From assembly GCA_031280545.1 (NCBI GenBank), contig JAITGP010000008.1, positions 1-41,355 of the forward strand: 41,355 bases of DNA, in the 5' to 3' direction. Every line of letters begins with the position of its first letter. The stretch's first letter is position 1. Made by a program: the position numbers and the translations under genes. The notes beneath the pieces were generated by a model, which saw only the letters and a list, made by a program, of their open reading frames with translations, was not told where the DNA came from and did not search any database. Source of the DNA: Candidatus Peribacteria bacterium (GTDB lineage Bacteria > Patescibacteria > JAEDAM01 > Absconditabacterales > Absconditicoccaceae). Positions 1,832 to 31,492 of this stretch are shown here, piece after piece.

Positions 1832-2860
1832 CTATCAATTCTTCCAATCTCTCCAAAATCCCTCTTCAAATTGCTGGATCAAAGAGGAATCTATTAACAT
1901 GATTCAGATTTCTCTATTATTGTCTAAAGAGTTATCCGAAAGGTTCATAGAACCCAGTAAAAGGTACTTTCAATCAATAAGAATCATTTTAGTGTGATTG
2001 TAGCGAGAAGAGAGCTTGCGAGCAAGTGCTGGCCCGAAATAGCTCACCACTTCCGTGTTATCCACCGTATCCGCCACGATAATGTGCAAATCAACCTTTT
2101 CAGATTGCTGACGAAGAATATCCAGAATCGCAGGATCGAGAATGTATTGCGTCTGAATGATAATTGACTCCTCTGCCTTTGTCAGCATTGCTTCTATCAC
2201 GGCTCTACAATTAGTAGGACAAAAGACCAAATTTGGATGAAGTTGATCAGCTTTTAGAGTTTCTCCTGCCCAATCTTTTTCAAAAAGTTGTTGTAATGAC
2301 TCGCGAACCACCTGATTGGAAGAGTAAAAAAAATGTTCACGATTGGACTCAAAGCTGGATTTGGTAAGGTTTGCCGTCTGAATCCAAAAAGCCTCTTCAT
2401 TCAGCATTACTTTACTGTGTACGTAGACCGTCCCCATCGGGTCATCAGACTGAATTTTTATAGGTTGTTCACCAGAAAAAGCGTTTTGCAACTGCTTAAA
2501 AAAGTTCTGATAGGCATTGTAGATATTATTTTCCAAAATAATACGAATCGGGAGTCCTTTCTTCTGAGAAAGCTCTAAAAAAGCAGATTTAAAAGGCTGA
2601 TAGGTAATTTCATAATTTCGCAGATGGAGGAAAGAATTTGTGTTTGCTAAGAAGTTTTGATAAGTTTGCAAAACTTTAGGATTGGGTCAAATAAAGAGAG
2701 TTCAGGTAATATTTTGTAATCAAGAAAAAAAGGCTGACGGGTCAAAGGAAACATCTTTGGAATCTGGAGCATGATATCCCGACCCAAAGTCTAGTTTGAC
2801 GAGTAGAGAAAACACGATAAGAAAAATCAGGGAGAGAGATCGTAGGACAGTTTTCTTCAT
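1832..2860 (-). CDS. phospholipase D family protein (two HKD motifs), membrane-anchored or exported
   Basis: 342 residues once six in-frame TGA are read as Gly. The N-terminus MKKTVLRSLSLIFLIVFSLL is a signal peptide or anchor. Two HxKxxxxD-type catalytic motifs are visible. The first is HSKVMLNE (H148, K150), where Glu replaces the usual Asp, followed by TANLTKSSFESNRE. The second is HTKMILID (H289, K291, D296), followed by GSMNLSDNSLDNNREIG. This is the bilobed architecture of PLD/cardiolipin-synthase enzymes, which cleave or transfer phosphodiester bonds. The size is short for cardiolipin synthase, so an exported phospholipase or nuclease is also possible. UGA encodes the Gly right after the second HKD motif. 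The last sense codon is also UGA, directly before the TAG stop. A TATAAT lies about 35 nt upstream of the start. Confidence 0.88.
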
Positions 2861-4384: not shown

Positions 4385-4438
4385 AGTTTTTATCTATTGT
4401 AAATTAGTAGTATGAATACTCCTAAATGATGATTAAAT

Positions 4439-5761
4439 ATGAAAATGATTGCTAGAAACTTTTTTGCAATTCCTGCTTTAGCTCTAATACTTTTTGCATG
4501 TGAACAAAAAAAACCTTATATAGTGCAATCTGGAGATAGTTATCGAAAAATTGCAACTGCAATTGCAGAAGGATTGTGATATGATAGCCTGACTAATGCT
4601 CAAAAAAATACTCTTGTTCTACAATTGCAAGATTGGAATCCTGAGCTTAAAGCTGAATCTCTCAAAACATGAGATACCGTTAATTATGATGAAGATGAAA
4701 TAAAAGCTTCATTAAGAGGAGGTGATAAGGTAAAAAAAAATAGTCCAGACAAAAACTCTGCTCCAGATAAAGGATCTACATGACCAATTAAAATAAAGTC
4801 GGTAGAAGAATTTAAAAATTCTAAAAATTATCTTGTTCATAAATTATACTTAGATAACTATCATGACAAAAGAAACCCAAATGCCCTATCTAATAGAGAA
4901 AAAATAGAAAAAGCTTTAAATGAAGGATACTCAATTTATTTTTTCCCAGAAAGAGAAAATACGAATTCTCCTATTTTACATTTAGAAGATATTATAGAAA
5001 CAGAAATAGAATCGACCTCTCTCCAATGAGTAAAAATTGTATTAGATCCCTGACATTCTGGTTATGATCCAGGAACTATCGGATTAAGATCTTATGGACC
5101 AGAAGAAAATAAAGAAAAAACATTAGTATACGAAAACGCTATAGCTATGGATTTATCTTATAGAATAGCACAATGAATTAGAAAACATTCAGGGAACGTA
5201 GAGTTTACTCACTATTTTAATAGGAGATGAATAGTTAATTGAGAAGAAGGGAAATACCTTCCACCAGCTACTCATTACAAAGATAAAAATGGGAATGAAC
5301 AATACCAAGATGTATGAACAGATGATATTAAAAATGGAATAGTCCCTCAAGGTGGTATTTTTCCTGCAGATAAAACATGATTAGAGAGAAGAGTAAATAT
5401 TTCAAATAATAAAAAATGAGTCAATCTCTTTATTTCTATACATGCAGATGGTGTAAGTTCTAGTATTGAGAACTTTGAAGTTCAATATTATAGAGATTCC
5501 CAACCATCTAAAAGAATAGCTGACCAACTATTGGCAAATGGAGCTGGATATTATTATCAGTGAATAAAAAGTAATGGAGTTGATCATCATACTACTGGGA
5601 ATGGAAATTTTGTAATAAAAAATACAAAGAGTCCTGCAATATTGATAGAAATATGAAATACTATGAATATTCATCAAGCATTTATCCTAGCGACTCCCGA
5701 GGGAAGACAGATGCTAGCGGATTCAATTATACAAGCTTTAATAGCAGTATATAAAAAATAG
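4439..5761 (+). CDS. N-acetylmuramoyl-L-alanine amidase lipoprotein (LysM + Amidase_3)
   Basis: 440 residues with 13 UGA codons read as Gly. With the standard code almost nothing of this gene is visible. The lipobox is LFAC at about residues 18-21. A LysM domain follows (YIVQSGDSYRKIA ... WNPELKAESLKTGDTV). The C-terminal half is a zinc amidase of the Amidase_3 family: VLDPGHSG (H206), E232, SIHADG (H335) and LIEIGN (E404). The Gly of DPGH and the Gly of EIGN are both UGA, at invariant family positions. The enzyme cleaves the amide bond between MurNAc and L-Ala of peptidoglycan. It sits between a LysM-like protein and a transglycosylase-like lipoprotein. Confidence 0.95.
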
Positions 5762-22694: not shown

Positions 22695-23447
22695 CTAGGA
22701 ATTTACATTATGATACACATGATCAACATCGTCATCTTCCTCTAAGGCATCAGAAATTCTCTCAAATCTCTCCAAATCTTCTCCCGTTAAATTCACCGTA
22801 TTGTCTGCGAAATAGTGCAAATCCGCTTCGGCGATATGGTATCCTAACTCAGCAATCTGCTTCCTTACCGTGATAAAGTCAGCTTTTTCAGTATATACTT
22901 CAGCAATCCCATCTTCAATACTGACGTCGCTGATAGCGAGTTCCATCACGTCCATTTCAAGTTTGTCTGCATCGAAAGACTCAACCTTTTCCATTTCTCT
23001 TCCTTTGTCTTCATATTTGATACTCACTCCATCAATCACAATCAACCCTTTCTCCTGAAACTGCCACGCAACAGCACCAATTTCCGCCATCGCACCACCT
23101 GCTTTCGTCAAAATCGTTCTTACGGCACTACTCGTTCTGTTCGTGTTAGAAGTAATCGTTTTGATCAAAAATGCTGAGCCATTCGGACCGTAGCCTTCAT
23201 ACATTACCTCCTTCATCTCTTCTCCTTCCAGCTGTCCAGAGCCTTTCAAAATAGCTCTATCAATCACATCTCTCGGCAATCCGTGGTATCTTGCTTTTTC
23301 AAGCACCATTTCCAAACTAGGGTTCATTTTAGGGTCTGCACCATTTTTGGCAGCCATTTGGATTTTCTTTCCAATAATAGAATAAATCCTTGATTTTGCA
23401 GCATCCCCGCTGGCTTTTCTCGCCGCGATACTATGTCGTCTTCCCAT
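22695..23447 (-). CDS. yebC: YebC/PmpR (TACO1) family protein
   Basis: 250 residues, normal for the family. Hallmarks are the N-terminal MGRRHSIAARKASGDAAKSR (a variant of the usual GHSKWxxIKHKK start), then IQMAAKNGADPKMNP, GLPRDVIDRAI, MYEGYGPNGSAFLI and TNRTSSAVRTILTKAGG. YebC proteins were long annotated as transcription regulators. Bacterial and mitochondrial members have been linked to translation of difficult, including proline-rich, stretches. That would fit a genome encoding Pro-rich tails and linkers, but this link is inference. It lies 69 nt downstream of recX on the same strand. Stop TAG, no UGA. Confidence 0.95.
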   Translation of the reverse strand: MGRRHSIAARKASGDAAKSRIYSIIGKKIQMAAKNGADPKMNPSLEMVLEKARYHGLPRDVIDRAILKGSGQLEGEEMKEVMYEGYGPNGSAFLIKTITSNTNRTSSAVRTILTKAGGAMAEIGAVAWQFQEKGLIVIDGVSIKYEDKGREMEKVESFDADKLEMDVMELAISDVSIEDGIAEVYTEKADFITVRKQIAELGYHIAEADLHYFADNTVNLTGEDLERFERISDALEEDDDVDHVYHNVNS

Positions 23448-23516: not shown

Positions 23517-23957
23517 CTACTCCCTCTTCCCATTTAATACGTCCTTAATATCCTGTAGCCTGTGTCCCTTTCTCATCAGCTTCTGAATAATATCAAATCC
23601 ATCTACGCCTTTTTTCTTGTAGTTCTCAATTTCTTTCCTAATTCCTGAGGCAATTCCTTCGCTCATATCAGCTTTATTTTCTTCAATAAGCTGGTCTAAA
23701 ATCCCATTATCAATCCCTCTTTGTTGTAATTTCTGCTTAATCACGAAAACAGGTTTCCCCTTTTTTACCACTTCACTGTAAAAATAGCTTTCCGCGTATT
23801 TCAAATCATTGATAAAGTCGTTTCTTTTCAGGCTTTCCATCGTTTTTTGCACGCTCTCCGTGTCATAGCCTTTTTTATACAGTAAAATCCTCATCTCCTG
23901 CTCCGTCTTGGGATAGCGGGAAAGATAAGAAAGTGCGTATTCCATACAGTTCGCCAT
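23517..23957 (-). CDS. recX: RecX-family regulator of RecA
   Basis: 146 residues from ATG 23957 (MANCMEYALSYLSRYPKTE). A TTG four codons upstream is less likely. It has the three tandem three-helix modules of RecX: ALSYLSRYPKTEQEMRILLYKKGY, then INDLKYAESYFYSEVVKKGKP with VIKQKLQQRGID, and a final KKGVDGFDIIQKLMRKG. RecX binds RecA filaments and limits or modulates recombination. recA is not in the window. The gene is followed by yebC. A 33-bp repeat lies 43 nt upstream of its start. No UGA. Confidence 0.88.
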   Translation of the reverse strand: MANCMEYALSYLSRYPKTEQEMRILLYKKGYDTESVQKTMESLKRNDFINDLKYAESYFYSEVVKKGKPVFVIKQKLQQRGIDNGILDQLIEENKADMSEGIASGIRKEIENYKKKGVDGFDIIQKLMRKGHRLQDIKDVLNGKRE

Positions 23958-24000
23958 AGGGGTATTCAAAATAATACTAAAAAGAAGTCTGATTGTAGTA

Positions 24001-24033
24001 TGGCGATTTCTCCTGCTTTATCAAGGTAAGATT
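24001..24033. repeat. 33-bp direct repeat, copy 1
   Basis: It is identical over 33 bp to 25435-25467, starting TGGCGATTTCTCC and ending GGTAAGATT. It lies just upstream of recX. The two copies bracket the RelA/SpoT gene and the palindrome pair, 1434 bp apart. Confidence 0.9.
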
Positions 24034-24099
24034 TATAGTGCGTGATGAGTATTGTTTCTCTATTGGTATTTTTGATTTAAAATTTACATTTGCATATTA

Positions 24100-25158
24100 T
24101 TATCCTTTCTTCATACTGCTACGTAAATGCTTAATAAAATTTTCGGTATCTCAAAAATAGTTTGGATAAGCCTGCTTTAAAGTTTTCAAGGAGTCCCCAG
24201 AAACCAATACAACTTGTCAGGCATATTCATCTTGAAATTGTCTTTCTTGATTTCAATAATCTGTCATAGCTTTATCCAATTCTCAGCGTTGATATCAATT
24301 GATTTTCATGGAGTTCTCTTTTAAGTTCAAAATTAAAAGATAGTATTCATAAAAAGACTTCTTTTTACTAAGTTTATTTATAAAATTCAATCATTCACTA
24401 TACACTTGCATTTTAGAAATAACATGAAGCTCTTTTTCTTTTTGTTCTAATATCTTTTTTAATTCTCCTACATCACATCATTTATGCATATCCAAAGGTT
24501 CACATCATTCTGTTATAGCAAAAAGAGAGCTAATCAAAGCAAAAAAATCTAACCAATCTTGTGTTCATTCATCAGATTTTAAAGACTTATTTAAAACAAT
24601 TCACATGGTTTCTACTGCTGTTGCCCAAATATGTTGAAGTTCAGTTCTTAATTGAATTTCTATTTGCAATCATTTATACTCAGGAGCATAAGAATTATCA
24701 TATTTATACACTAAATGTAGCGATCTGTATCCAGATTTTTTTGGTGCAGAAATATAATCATCAATCCTAACCAACTTATGATCAAATTTACTATTTTTAA
24801 TATCATCTCCTAGTTTGTACACATAATCAATTTCCCTTAAAACGACCCTTAATCATCAAATATCTTGCATTCTAGATAACATCATATTAGGATTTCTTTT
24901 TAGTTTTCACAGAATAGAATGAGTACGTTTTAGTCTTTCCGCAACGATAGCCTTATACTTTAAGGTTCTTATTTTTCATCTAAGAAAAGACTGAAAGGTA
25001 TTTAGTGGATAATCATGGACAGCTCTCCAATTATTCAAAATAGGGAAAGCCTCTTCTTTTTGTTTTTCAGAAGATTTTTCATCTATGAGAATTTTTCAAG
25101 CCTTATTAATTTGCTCTTTTGAATATTGAAGATACACTTTTTTTCATTTCCCAACCAC
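24100..25158 (-). CDS. RelA/SpoT-domain alarmone synthetase
   Basis: 352 residues with 17 UGA read as Gly; only 6 glycines use GGN. The N-terminal region (SKEQINKAGKILI, NNWRAVHDYPLNTFQ, VAERLKRTHSILGKLKR) precedes the synthetase core MQDIGGLRVVL (D99; G101-G102 are tandem UGA), KKSGYRSLHLVYKY (143 on) and EIQLRTELQHIWATAVE (E167). The C-terminal module has VSGDSLKTLKQAYPNYF. It has no HD hydrolase domain, so it is a stand-alone pyrophosphate transfer enzyme making (p)ppGpp or a related product. Some relatives are toxins (toxSAS) that modify tRNA. I see no antitoxin ORF. The GTG start at 25158 is chosen because it lies 31 nt from the -10. An ATG at 25147 is out of frame. The gene lies inside the 33-bp repeats. 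Confidence 0.9.
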
Positions 25159-25189
25159 AATTATATCATTTAAGAGATAAATCTGTCCT

Positions 25190-25217
25190 ATAATACCTTT
25201 TTTTAATCTCTATTCAA
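25190..25217 (-). promoter_or_regulatory. putative promoter of the RelA/SpoT gene
   Basis: On the minus strand, TTGAAT, 16 nt, TATTAT, ending 31 nt before GTG 25158. The twin palindromes lie directly upstream. Confidence 0.5.
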
Positions 25218-25223
25218 GTAATA

Positions 25224-25296
25224 AAGATGAAAACGTATCTTTTTGATTTTTTACTAGTTCTAAACTATTGATATTCAAAAAAGATAGAGTTTCATC
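25224..25296. repeat. 73-nt imperfect palindrome, copy A
   Basis: The ends GATGAAA and GTTTCATC are complementary, as are TATCTTTTTGA and TCAAAAAAGATA inside them. At the centre TAGTT-CTA-AACTA forms a small hairpin. It could fold as one long stem in RNA or as a cruciform. It lies 7 bp from the -35 of the RelA/SpoT promoter. Confidence 0.85.
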
Positions 25297-25315
25297 CCTT
25301 AATATAAATAAGTAA

Positions 25316-25388
25316 AAGATGAAAACACATCTTTTTGATTTCTTACCAGTTCTAAACTATTGGTATTCAAAAAAGATAGAGTTTCATC
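25316..25388. repeat. 73-nt imperfect palindrome, copy B
   Basis: Same length and layout as copy A and about 90 percent identical by eye, repeated in the same direction after 19 nt. The inner TACCA pairs with TGGTA, whereas in copy A both arms have changed (TACTA, TGATA). Confidence 0.85.
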
Positions 25389-25434
25389 TTAACGGTATGT
25401 AATTAATGCTCTCAAACATTGCTCTTGTTTTTTT

Positions 25435-25467
25435 TGGCGATTTCTCCTGCTTTATCAAGGTAAGATT
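25435..25467. repeat. 33-bp direct repeat, copy 2
   Basis: It is identical to 24001-24033. It begins 2 nt beyond the TAA stop of the leftward membrane-protein gene 25470-25988. No similarity is seen outside the 33 bp. Confidence 0.9.
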
Positions 25468-25469
25468 AC

Positions 25470-25988
25470 TTATTCAGCTTTTTCTGTATTTTCTTCCTTA
25501 ATATCTCATTTCTTATCCTTTCTCTTATGATAATGATGCAGAACCCAACGAGCAATCGGTTGTGCTAACACTGCTTCCACTCCAAAGGCAATCCCAAAAT
25601 TACGTGGTCGACGATAGAAAAAATGCGTGAATGCATCCATATTCACTTCCCCCGTCCCAATCCGCGTCGCCACCACAGTCAGGATAATCGACATCAAAAG
25701 TACATTACACAGGGTATTGATCACCATATGAGCATTGAAACTATCAGTAGGTGCGATGATTTTATTCGCCAGTCGCTGTGCAGGTTTCTGAGTTGCTAGG
25801 ACGAGAATAATCACGGTAATCCAGATAAAAGGCAGAATTTTTAAAGTATGTTTCCAGACTTCAAAACTAAATTCCACCTCAAACATACTGATTAAAGGAG
25901 CGATAATGTTGACGGAGATGAGAGAAATAATGAGCATAAAAGCCAAAAATTCACGCTTATTGCGAGGGAGTTTCATATAAAATTCCAT
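25470..25988 (-). CDS. four-helix membrane protein, possibly DUF2798-like
   Basis: 172 residues with one UGA (25506-25508) read as Gly, which adds an acidic tail ending in KAE before TAA. Starts at ATG 25988 (MEFYMKL) or, equally plausible, ATG 25976 (MKLPRNKREFLAF). Hydrophobic segments include FLAFMLIISLISVNIIAPLI, ILPFIWITVIILVLA, VINTLCNVLLMSIILTVVA and a weaker last one. The arrangement recalls DUF2798 membrane proteins, but the match is only by general pattern. Its role is unknown. Confidence 0.65.
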
Positions 25989-26020
25989 AAGATATTTTTA
26001 GAAATATAAAAAATAAGTAT

Positions 26021-26048
26021 AAAAAACTGACTCGAAATTTCAAGTCAG
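26021..26048 (-). terminator. Rho-independent terminator (minus strand)
   Basis: A near-perfect palindrome (CTGACTCGAAA / TTTCAAGTCAG) is followed on the minus strand by six T. It ends the transcript of 26092-26910. Confidence 0.75.
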
Positions 26049-26091
26049 AGTTGTATGATATAGTACGTAGTAAGTAGGATTTCTTTGATTT

Positions 26092-26910
26092 TTAATGATA
26101 CTTCACTCCTTCTTGGTCTAAAATCACATTCAACAAATAGTCATTATATATCGCATCTCTCATTATCGTACCAATCGTTTTCCCACCTCCATCTTTGATA
26201 TACAAATCTCTACTTCCCCCGTGTTTACTGGTCGGAACAAGTTCAGCGATTTCGTCCCAAGCAAACGTTTCTCCCTTAATTTCTATTCCCGCTTTGCTGA
26301 CTTTCAGACTTTCAAAATCAATACTCTCACCTTTTTCGTATTTCTCTAGCATTGCGTCTTGTCGGTAGTCTCTGTGATGTTCAAGCAGACTTTTAGAAAA
26401 ATTGAGAAAGAGATTATTTTCCTCCACGCTCAGCTTAACCTGCTCCTCATTGATGAGGGTCAATGTAATATTCACATTACTTTCGTGGGTAGGACCATTG
26501 CTTCGAAGCGACCTCTGAATGTAGCGAATATCCTTATACTCATAAGCATATTCCTTCTTCCCAATCTTCAGCCAAAAGCCTTTTCCATACACTTCTGCTT
26601 GCACACTTTTCCCCTCACCCAGACTAGAAGCATATCCCAGAAAAGCACCAAAAGGGATTAAAAGCCAGAGCAAACTTCGCTTGTTCCTTTCAATGAAGAG
26701 GTCTCGCCCGAGAAAAGTGTATTTGTCCCGAAATCGCCGTATTCCAGCGATAGAAATCGCCAAACAAACCAACGTTCCAATTCGATTTTGGATTTTGGTT
26801 CAGGTGTCTTTGAGTTTTCTTCCCTCAGGAGAAAAGGTTTTAAGCGGGCTTCCTCGTGCTTGTTTCACTTCATCAGCGGGAAGTCCAGAAAGGGTATACG
26901 TTGTTGTCAT
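26092..26910 (-). CDS. membrane protein with PH-like soluble domain (putative)
   Basis: 272 residues from ATG 26910. One UGA (in KDTGTKIQNR) would make a standard-code caller start too late. Two hydrophobic segments lie at about residues 52-65 (TLVCLAISIAGI) and 85-100 (SLLWLLIPFGAFLGYASS). The following 170 residues are beta-rich with repeated short strands (GFWLKIGKKEYAYEYKDIRYI, GIEIKGETFAWDEIAELV), as in bacterial PH-like domains that sit behind membrane anchors. The domain call is by strand pattern only. It heads towards a terminator and follows 26944-27252 on the same strand. Confidence 0.65.
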
Positions 26911-29524: not shown

Positions 29525-31492
29525 ATGGCTTTTGGAGAAAACTGAGAAAGGAAAGACCTGATAGAGGCAGTAAATACTGCGAATCTTTCTCCAAAACCAG
29601 AAAATATCCCTTTACAAAAGATCAGCCCGAACTTAGATACCAAAAGAATTCAGCAAGAAATCCAACAACTTCAAACTGAACATCTAGAAAAAATCAAACA
29701 GGAACTGCCTGCCTTGGCTGAGCAAATCAAACATTCGGTGACATTCAATGCCTATATAGGAGAACTAGAACAAGCAGTACTGACAAAAAATCAGACTAAA
29801 AAAGCTGAAAGCATTAAATACTTCAAAGAACATTCTGATCTAAAGAGTACATTGGAACAAAATGTTCAAAAACTCGCTTCTAGCTCAAAAGAAAGCTATG
29901 ACAAATTGGAACTACTCCAAATTCAGCTGTATGGATATCTTTTTTTGGATGAAGGAATTGCTATTGATGGAAACAAAGGAGTACAAACTAATCTCGTGAT
30001 TGAGGCATTACAGGAGAACGAGAATATGAATTTGGAAGCATTAACCAAAAAAATTACTAGGATTCTCCAGCGTTATAGCAAAAGTTCGATCAGAAAAAAC
30101 GTTATCTGAAAATTATTACAAACTGCTAAACAAAAATTTAAAAATACAGAATCTTCAGAAGAAGATCAATGGAAAGATAACACCCAGCTCCAGCAAATCA
30201 TTCAGAAAAAAAAGCAGAAAATGAAACTGACTACAGAGGAAATTGTAATGTTCCAGATCTATGGAAATGTCTTTTTCGATGAAGCCATTTTGGTAGATGG
30301 AATTGAGGGGACACAAACCAAGGATGTTGGAAACATTTTGACCAAACAAGGAACCCTGAGCGAGAGAGCCAAGGAATGGAAAGAAAAAGCTGAAGCCAAC
30401 CAGAAAGAAAAAGCCACACTAAACGCTCAATCTTCTAAAGAAATTTCAAAAACCAGCTTTAAATCCCCTCTTCAATCTGTGAATATTCCTGCACTTCTAG
30501 AACATAATCCCGCCCTAAAACATCTCGTAGCCAATACAGGAGAAAAAGCAGAAGAAGCAATACAGACCATACAACAGGTATTTTCGTATTTGACTAATTA
30601 CCTTGATACCACGACCCCAGAACAGAAAAACTTTCTCCAAGACTTTACGATAGATTTTACCAAAGGAATACATGTAGTGGGGAGCAAAATAGAAATCACA
30701 GGTTTTATGAAAAATGGAGCCTATAAAGACACCCCAATTAGCTTTTCTTATGATATGGATTCTAGAAATTTTGCTATCAATACCCTCTTGGAACAGAACG
30801 CAAACTCCAACACATTCAATATCAACCCTACTCATCCCAATAAAATACTCTTTCAACTTCCTCAAAATTTAGACACCTCAAAAGGAACAAGGCCTTTGGA
30901 TATTTCTCCGATCACTCAACATAATATAGAGCTCAATATCGAAAAAAATAGAGCAATTTCTACGATGTTGGATCTCTTTTACTTGGAGAGACAGCCTCCT
31001 GAATATACAAAAAAGGATTCTAAATGACTCTATCATATGTTTCAAATATTGGAAAACAGTCTAACAACGCTGGAAGATTGTAGAAATTTCAGAGAGGTGA
31101 TACAACATTTATCTACCATCATCGGAGGAAAAATACAAGAAACTCCTCCAGAAGAAATAAAGGATCCCTTAAAAGAAGAACATCATGAAGAGCTAAACAT
31201 TTCAAAGCAACAGGATGAAAAGCTGGCCAGTGCTTCCTCTTTATTGGGGACTCTCTTTAATGCCCAAAAAAGACTGCAAGATAGAACTGACCTCAAAACA
31301 CAAGACGGAACTAATAATGGACTCTATCTTTTTCTGAAACGTGCAACTCCGCAGATCACAGATTTGAATTCCACTGCTGAGGGCGAACAACAAAAAATCA
31401 ATATCAAAGAAATTTCAAGCTATCTTGCTGCGATTGAGCAAGGTAAAGAGAAGGAGTATCAAGGATTTATTAAGAGAGGACTTAAGGGGTAG
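29525..31492 (+). CDS. large non-exported protein with two peptidoglycan-binding-like motifs
   Basis: 655 residues with three UGA (29543, 30107, 31025) read as Gly, TAG stop. It has no signal peptide or membrane helix and long Lys/Glu/Gln-rich helices. Two similar segments about 110 residues apart, YGYLFLDEGIAIDGNKGVQT and YGNVFFDEAILVDGIEGTQT, have the DGxxGxxT pattern of PG_binding_1 repeats. The middle (about 330-470) is a beta-rich domain (DFTIDFTKGIHVVG, ITGFMKNGAYKDTPISF). The PG-binding reading is inferred from the motif alone. It lies upstream of another very large protein (31583-34705) of the same character. Confidence 0.75.

Follow-up and report, generated by a model that had tools for sequence, protein, structure and literature searches.

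How did a single alarmone-synthetase gene come to lie between two identical direct repeats in the spacer that separates a membrane-protein gene from recX? The original prediction read this arrangement as a small cassette that entered the chromosome by att-type integration or by some other recombinational insertion, and it raised the possibility of a role in phage defense or stress. We analyzed the locus within its window, the whole stretch of 41,355 nucleotides in which it was noticed. The two repeats are present as predicted: the copy on the recX side (24001-24033, minus strand) and the copy on the membrane-gene side (25435-25467, minus strand) are identical at 33/33 positions and their starts are 1434 bp apart. 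The neighboring bases beyond each copy differ, and the repeat is therefore 33 bp in full. These copies, which represent candidate attR (recX side) and attL (membrane-gene side) sequences or half-sites, enclose an interior of 1401 bp that contains one gene (24034-25434, minus strand). No third copy of the 33-mer was found in the 41-kb window when allowing up to 3 mismatches (100 shuffles gave 0). With a 16-nt seed and a minimum length of 24 nt, just two further repeat families were found in the window: tandem palindromes within the cassette, and a repeat at 30997/31623 (80%).

The gene order on the minus strand is membrane protein, cassette, recX and yebC. The membrane protein (25470-25988, minus strand; 172 aa under code 25) has homologues carrying PF11391 (DUF2798), and the protein itself has no Pfam match at E 0.001. 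The recX gene (23517-23969, minus strand) encodes RecX domains and is followed by yebC (22695-23447, minus strand), which encodes YebC/TACO1 domains. One repeat had been described as starting 2 nt past the stop codon of the membrane-protein gene. This spacing is correct for its TAA (25472-25470) but valid only in code 25, because under table 11 the gene stops at 25506. The gene is 12 residues shorter in table 11 because its TGA encodes glycine. The other repeat, as expected, is found upstream of recX, 31 nt from the start of the ORF in its listed form (TTG, 23969). Joining the flanks would leave a plausible intergenic spacer, and the 33-mer is not a fragment of a neighboring gene in the window. 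No tRNA was found in the window and we rejected a tRNA attachment site.

We then analyzed the gene located between the repeats. The predicted RelA/SpoT gene is real, yet it forms an open reading frame solely under code 25, which reads TGA as glycine (24100-25158, minus strand; 352 aa; GTG start as listed, TAA stop and 17 in-frame TGA codons). Under table 11, no ORF of at least 70 aa was detected in the cassette interval. In-frame TGA codons under table 25 were also observed in other long ORFs of the window. The encoded protein matched RelA_SpoT in Pfam (PF04607; E 1.7e-20), PDC-S33 in PADLOC (E 5.6e-122; 338/349 positions) and phrog_4773 in PHROG (E 5.3e-114; 347/353 positions). Among PDB sequences, it matched CapRel SJ46 over residues 4-345 of 352 (E 5.8e-46), with a sequence identity of 33.9%. 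Its AlphaFold2 model, based on a 36-row alignment, reached a mean pLDDT of 86.9 and a pTM of 0.80, and Foldseek ranked 7ztb first (E 1.1e-22; TM 0.69; 353 columns). Three CapRel chains constituted the top PDB fold matches (E 1e-22 to 5e-21; TM 0.67-0.69), followed by single-domain synthetases with a TM of about 0.4. The rmsd to CapRel was 8-9 A, and the relative placement of the domains therefore differs or is uncertain.

Residues R79, R116, Y155, Y352 and Y355 of SJ46 correspond in the alignment to R75, R104, Y144, Y331 and Y334 of our protein. Passages of PMC9712102 on CapRel SJ46 describe R79 and R116 as coordinating ATP, Y155 as a G-loop residue required for protection and the YXXY motif (Y352, Y355) as blocking the adenine site; they also describe a protein that is released by a phage capsid protein and that pyrophosphorylates tRNA. 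Relative to SJ46, nine positions are unchanged (A77, R79, R116, Y155, V338, L339, A351, Y352 and Y355), and two are changed (R78 to Glu and A341 to Ser). The synthetase domain was identified from PF04607 together with the aligned Y144, R75 and R104, i.e., the catalytic G-loop tyrosine and the ATP-coordinating pair of arginines. The same chain carries a C-terminal domain of the self-inhibitory type, with the YXXY motif (Y331/Y334). By homology and predicted fold, these results confirm the gene as one encoding a CapRel-type fused toxin-antitoxin anti-phage protein (a fused toxSAS), hereafter capRel.

A search for homologues of this protein found 4468 sequences, of which 120 were listed. The 12 nearest listed relatives (P0001-P0012) present Trp at 2 to 7 of eight columns where other homologues have Gly. 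This pattern was observed in 13 of the first 40 listed homologues, the thirteenth (P0031) being a fragment. The set representing the standard code in this comparison began at P0019 and included at least one recoded fragment (P0031), which leaves the pattern in the first 12 unaffected. Trp at a conserved Gly is the table 4 product of genes in which TGA encodes Gly, and P0001-P0012 are therefore read as recoded. Their longest contigs measure 425 kb (P0010), 191 kb (P0012) and 46 kb (P0003). With the recoding Trp masked, our protein is 54-62% identical to these 12 relatives and forms with them one clade (support 1.0; FastTree) in a tree of 50 sequences, for which 45 of the 120 listed homologues (P0031 not among them) were combined with the query, SJ46 and three plasmid CapRels. 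The capRel gene thus belongs to a CapRel lineage living in code-25 organisms. The equivalents of R79, R116, Y155 and Y352 are kept in 12/12 recoded relatives; A77 is replaced by Val in all of them, three have a different or masked residue at A351 and one has Phe in place of Y355. The existence of this 13-member recoded CapRel clade suggests a circulation of defense genes inside the code boundary. We also observed that public protein sets hold apparent TGA=Gly genes translated by table 4 (P0001-P0012 and P0031). The resulting replacement of Gly by Trp in conserved motifs hides recoded homologues from motif searches.

Relatives were also searched in phage and plasmid sequences. In the named collections, matches to the CapRel protein comprised 27 phage records and 117 plasmid records, of which 3 and 91, respectively, covered 80% or more of the query; identity was below 60% throughout. 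The cassette DNA had no match above 27% coverage in the same phage and plasmid collections: short matches occurred in 13 phage records, and two plasmid capRel genes matched at 64-66%. No CapRel relative was confirmed in IMG/VR, either by protein (8 stretches matched) or by alignment (55 matched). Among viral contigs, the flanking recX yielded no match and yebC a single distant one. A CapRel search at E 1e-25 in 299 genomes of the phylum of a Clostridioides genome, run without a positive control, also returned none. Three plasmid CapRel loci (L028, L029 and L030; 4-6 kb each; 14-base seed) showed no flanking direct repeats of at least 20 bp, so CapRel genes are not generally flanked by such repeats. 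On one of these plasmids, pA17P3 of Psychrobacter (L028 2616-5038), the CapRel gene directly adjoins an integrase gene.

The interior of the cassette differs from its surroundings in base composition. Its GC-content is 0.28, relative to 0.39 for the repeat, recX and the membrane gene and 0.42 for yebC. In sliding windows, GC-content ranges from 0.26 to 0.30 inside the cassette; most windows in the flanks fall between 0.37 and 0.43, and the value drops to 0.32 at 25800-26199. The usage of TGA is also atypical: TGA represents 17/23 of the Gly codons of capRel (74%) and 69/701 of those in the 28 other window ORFs of at least 150 aa (P = 2e-12; Fisher test), the remaining 632 Gly codons of these ORFs being GGN. 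The next-highest TGA shares were found in a gene encoding a PLD-like protein (1832-2860; GC-content of 0.38; TGA at 40% of Gly codons) and in an amidase gene with a weak LysM match (4412-5761; GC-content of 0.31; TGA at 39% of Gly codons). These two genes were possibly acquired as well. Since the interior stands apart in both GC-content and TGA usage, the repeats fall at the borders of a foreign segment. The repeat itself looks host-like in composition.

These edges bear on two other explanations of the locus. First, capRel could be an old resident gene, long in place and merely atypical in composition, with repeats generated later by a local duplication. The other low-GC or TGA-rich genes of the window (1832-2860 and 4412-5761) are compatible with such a history, but the TGA share of capRel is far above that of all 28 other ORFs, GC-content steps at the repeats and the two copies are still identical at 33/33 positions. 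We consider a resident gene improbable. Second, the jump in composition at the exact repeats would also fit an assembly artefact, in which a short contig with 33-bp end overlaps (e.g., a capRel plasmid or phage circle) was joined into the chromosome during assembly. This scenario appears improbable since it requires two independent joins at the same 33-mer, unless a circle bearing the 33-mer does exist, and such a circle would be the mobile form itself. The idea of a defense cassette fares well on these data: the interior is foreign, its composition shifts at the repeats and its gene is a CapRel-type toxSAS. Overall, a horizontally acquired defense cassette is well supported and probable.

The chromosome that carries the cassette was characterized from its neighboring genes. 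The YebC protein of the window shares 98, 96 and 93% identity with proteins named, respectively, Candidatus Peribacteria, Bacteroidia and candidate division SR1, and 82% with one protein named Absconditabacteria. These identities are consistent with a host belonging to SR1/Absconditabacteria with TGA read as glycine, and the other taxon names among the relatives of YebC are probably misassigned. The nearest relatives of the membrane protein (79-87% identity) bear the same three names, Peribacteria, Bacteroidia and candidate division SR1. For the three relatives paired by name only, the contigs carrying YebC and the membrane protein differ in length (67.9/23.1, 9.7/14.7 and 32.7/42.0 kb), and the two genes may or may not be adjacent in these relatives. 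Beyond these three, identity to the membrane protein falls to 65% or less and the named relatives are mostly Bacillota, so the membrane gene itself is probably an older transfer. A genome scan with this gene yielded 25 loci, all titled as Bacillota taxa save one Spirochaetaceae.

The region between the membrane-side repeat and capRel contains the two predicted palindromes. Both are present and constitute tandem copies of one 92-bp unit, each copy forming an imperfect palindrome of 74 nt. The copy proximal to capRel (25223-25296) is 93% identical to the distal copy (25315-25388), at a spacing of 92. Both palindromes fold better than shuffled sequences on both strands, and the effect is stronger on the strand that does not encode capRel (proximal copy, z of -3.1 on the minus strand and -4.2 on the plus strand; distal copy, -2.7 and -4.5). 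They matched no Rfam family at the gathering score (best score of 27.6 bits vs 60). We rejected integron attC sites, as neither RYYYAAC nor GTTRRRY occurs in the palindromes and their 8-nt flanks on both strands. The palindromes also contain plus-strand ORFs of 26 and 27 aa, perhaps by chance; 3/5 base differences between the two copies change a residue, so these small ORFs show no sign of selection. The palindromes may function as an operator, an attenuator or an antisense RNA. The promoter included in the original prediction corresponds to a weak promoter-like sequence upstream of capRel (TTGAAT-16-TATTAT; 25190-25217, minus strand; 9/12). Our scan found 12 such sites relative to 9.1 expected, and another site (25189-25160; 10/12) abuts the start codon.

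The absence of an integrase or transposase from the interior, which had been predicted, was verified. Besides capRel, no ORF exceeds 52 aa from its first ATG and no further interior ORF reaches 70 aa from ATG, GTG or TTG; the cassette therefore contains no integrase or transposase, and an integrase of its own, expected of a site-specific integrative element, is lacking from the interior. The repeat does not resemble dif: its best score was 12-13/28 against the dif sites of E. coli and B. subtilis, from which that of the host may differ, and 363-484 of 500 shuffles were as good. We also rejected a DDE transposon, as the inverted repeats at the inner ends fall within the range of shuffled sequences (70/300 equal or better at width 11; 112-272/300 at other widths). 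Moreover, target duplications are usually shorter than 33 bp.

We propose that the locus is an acquired single-gene anti-phage CapRel cassette from a recoded source, inserted by recombination at 33-bp copies in a code-25 chromosome, with a probability of about 0.6. Within this proposal, we infer the defense role in this host, the insertion as one unit, the donor and the recombinase. The donor would be recoded and rich in TGA; a prophage using code 25 or a different recoded bacterium is the most likely candidate. Prophages of Absconditabacteria and Gracilibacteria are reported as rich in in-frame TGA in section 7 of PMC10746230, and a recoded prophage would thus be an obvious donor. Neither of the two search routes revealed a relative in the viral contigs of IMG/VR, so we infer a prophage donor rather than observe one. 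Donor DNA with the 33-bp sequence, either circular or linear, would recombine with a resident 33-bp copy in the spacer between the membrane gene and recX, and this exchange would leave one copy at each side of the cassette. Once in place, the N-terminal tRNA-pyrophosphokinase domain would be held off by CapRel's own C-terminal domain; binding of a phage protein to the C-terminal domain would free the toxin, translation would stop and the infection would abort. Several results count against the proposal: IMG/VR yielded neither an exact copy of the repeat nor a CapRel relative, the interior has no recombinase and no inner-end inverted repeats beyond those of shuffles, the three plasmid CapRel loci lack direct repeats over the 4-6 kb covered, and neither an empty site nor a circle junction nor a further insertion was encountered.

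Att-type integration fits this arrangement, as the original prediction had it, although it is unproven. Alternatively, a donor with a chance or shared 33-bp stretch could have entered by homologous or illegitimate recombination, either through a single RecA crossover or independently of RecA, with no site-specific enzyme involved and with the repeats serving only as the homology for the exchange. A length of 33 bp is close to the minimum used by RecA, which counts for this alternative, and neither a recombinase nor a dif or attC signature was found at the cassette. RecA-independent excision at direct repeats is further described in passages of PMC5426353 for the microcin H47 island, which is free of recombinase. 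However, such an exchange needs a donor that already carried the spacer sequence of the host, which site-specific integration explains more naturally. We consider a RecA-type or illegitimate origin unlikely on balance, although the resulting locus would be indistinguishable, as would one produced by the assembler joining contigs that overlap by 33 bp. For site-specific integration, the agent that we tentatively favor over RecA-type or RecA-independent exchange would be a recombinase acting in trans, or one that disappeared together with the remainder of a prophage or integrative element, which would make the cassette a decayed remnant similar to a CIME.

We also searched for the origin of the repeat sequence itself. 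Using 32 of its 33 bases as pattern, we found no exact copy in IMG/VR. One 21-mer from the repeat matched IMG/VR once, and this match extends to 25/25 bases (L033 964-988) inside the gene of a head-maturation (ClpP-like) protease, whereas the 21-mer from the other side of the repeat had no match in IMG/VR. Among the 50,697 phage records searched, 24 were matched and, of the 15 listed, the lowest E value was found for the Clp protease gene of Virgibacillus phage Mimir87 (L035 701-725; 23/25, with the codon frame shared; E 0.09). The two phage protease genes are homologous at the match, so they represent one signal and not two. For comparison, plasmid matches to the repeat were limited to 3 records (E 0.9-3). 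The chance of a 25-bp match was estimated at about 1e-3, assuming a database of 5e10 bases. A degenerate pattern for the ten residues encoded by the repeat gave 0 matches in IMG/VR, and no continuation of the protease was found beyond either copy in the window. The 25-bp phage match may be fortuitous, the remnant of a phage or a fragment similar to a spacer.

These results connect a phage-sensing protein that has been studied in depth with bacteria whose genetic code is altered. In one survey (PMC10746230, section 5), CRISPR-Cas was reported in 2/27 genomes of Absconditabacteria, so other defenses in these bacteria are of interest. Our search of an open-access library for papers pairing the words toxSAS with Gracilibacteria, or CapRel with Patescibacteria, found none. 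Although the protein family is already known, its recoded single-gene setting between perfect repeats is new, and we regard the mobile unit as no more than a candidate. Were the cassette to move, it would represent a very small mobile unit of defense. It is conceivable, but doubtful, that a code-locked pool of one-gene CapRel units with 33-bp cores mobilized by a trans recombinase is common to bacteria reading TGA as glycine and to the phages of these bacteria, the core possibly deriving from a phage head-protease gene. If such a pool exists, CapRel cassettes with in-frame TGA would be expressible only in code-25 cells.

Finally, we compared this locus to known systems. The protein resembles CapRel SJ46 (PMC9712102, PMC11578894) in its two-part architecture over nearly the full length, in its catalytic and YXXY residues and in its top fold match. 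In contrast, CapRel SJ46 is found in the genome of Salmonella phage SJ46, whereas the gene described here stands alone in a chromosomal spacer and is written in code 25 with 17 TGA codons. The layout of the cassette is similar to that of CIMEs and other decayed att-flanked elements (PMC5704250), whose cargo lies between two direct repeats without integration genes; it differs by its single gene in 1.4 kb and its candidate att sites, and no ICE or IME was recognized beside it among the window genes examined. The XerCD dif modules of Acinetobacter (PMC6449649) also place small cargo, including toxin-antitoxin pairs, between short recombination sites, but the 33-mer is unlike the dif sites of E. 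coli and B. subtilis. The microcin H47 island (PMC5426353) is a mobile island that also lies between direct repeats and lacks a recombinase of its own. That island, however, spans 13 kb between imperfect repeats in E. coli and its excision was shown, whereas the CapRel cassette is a candidate mobile unit.
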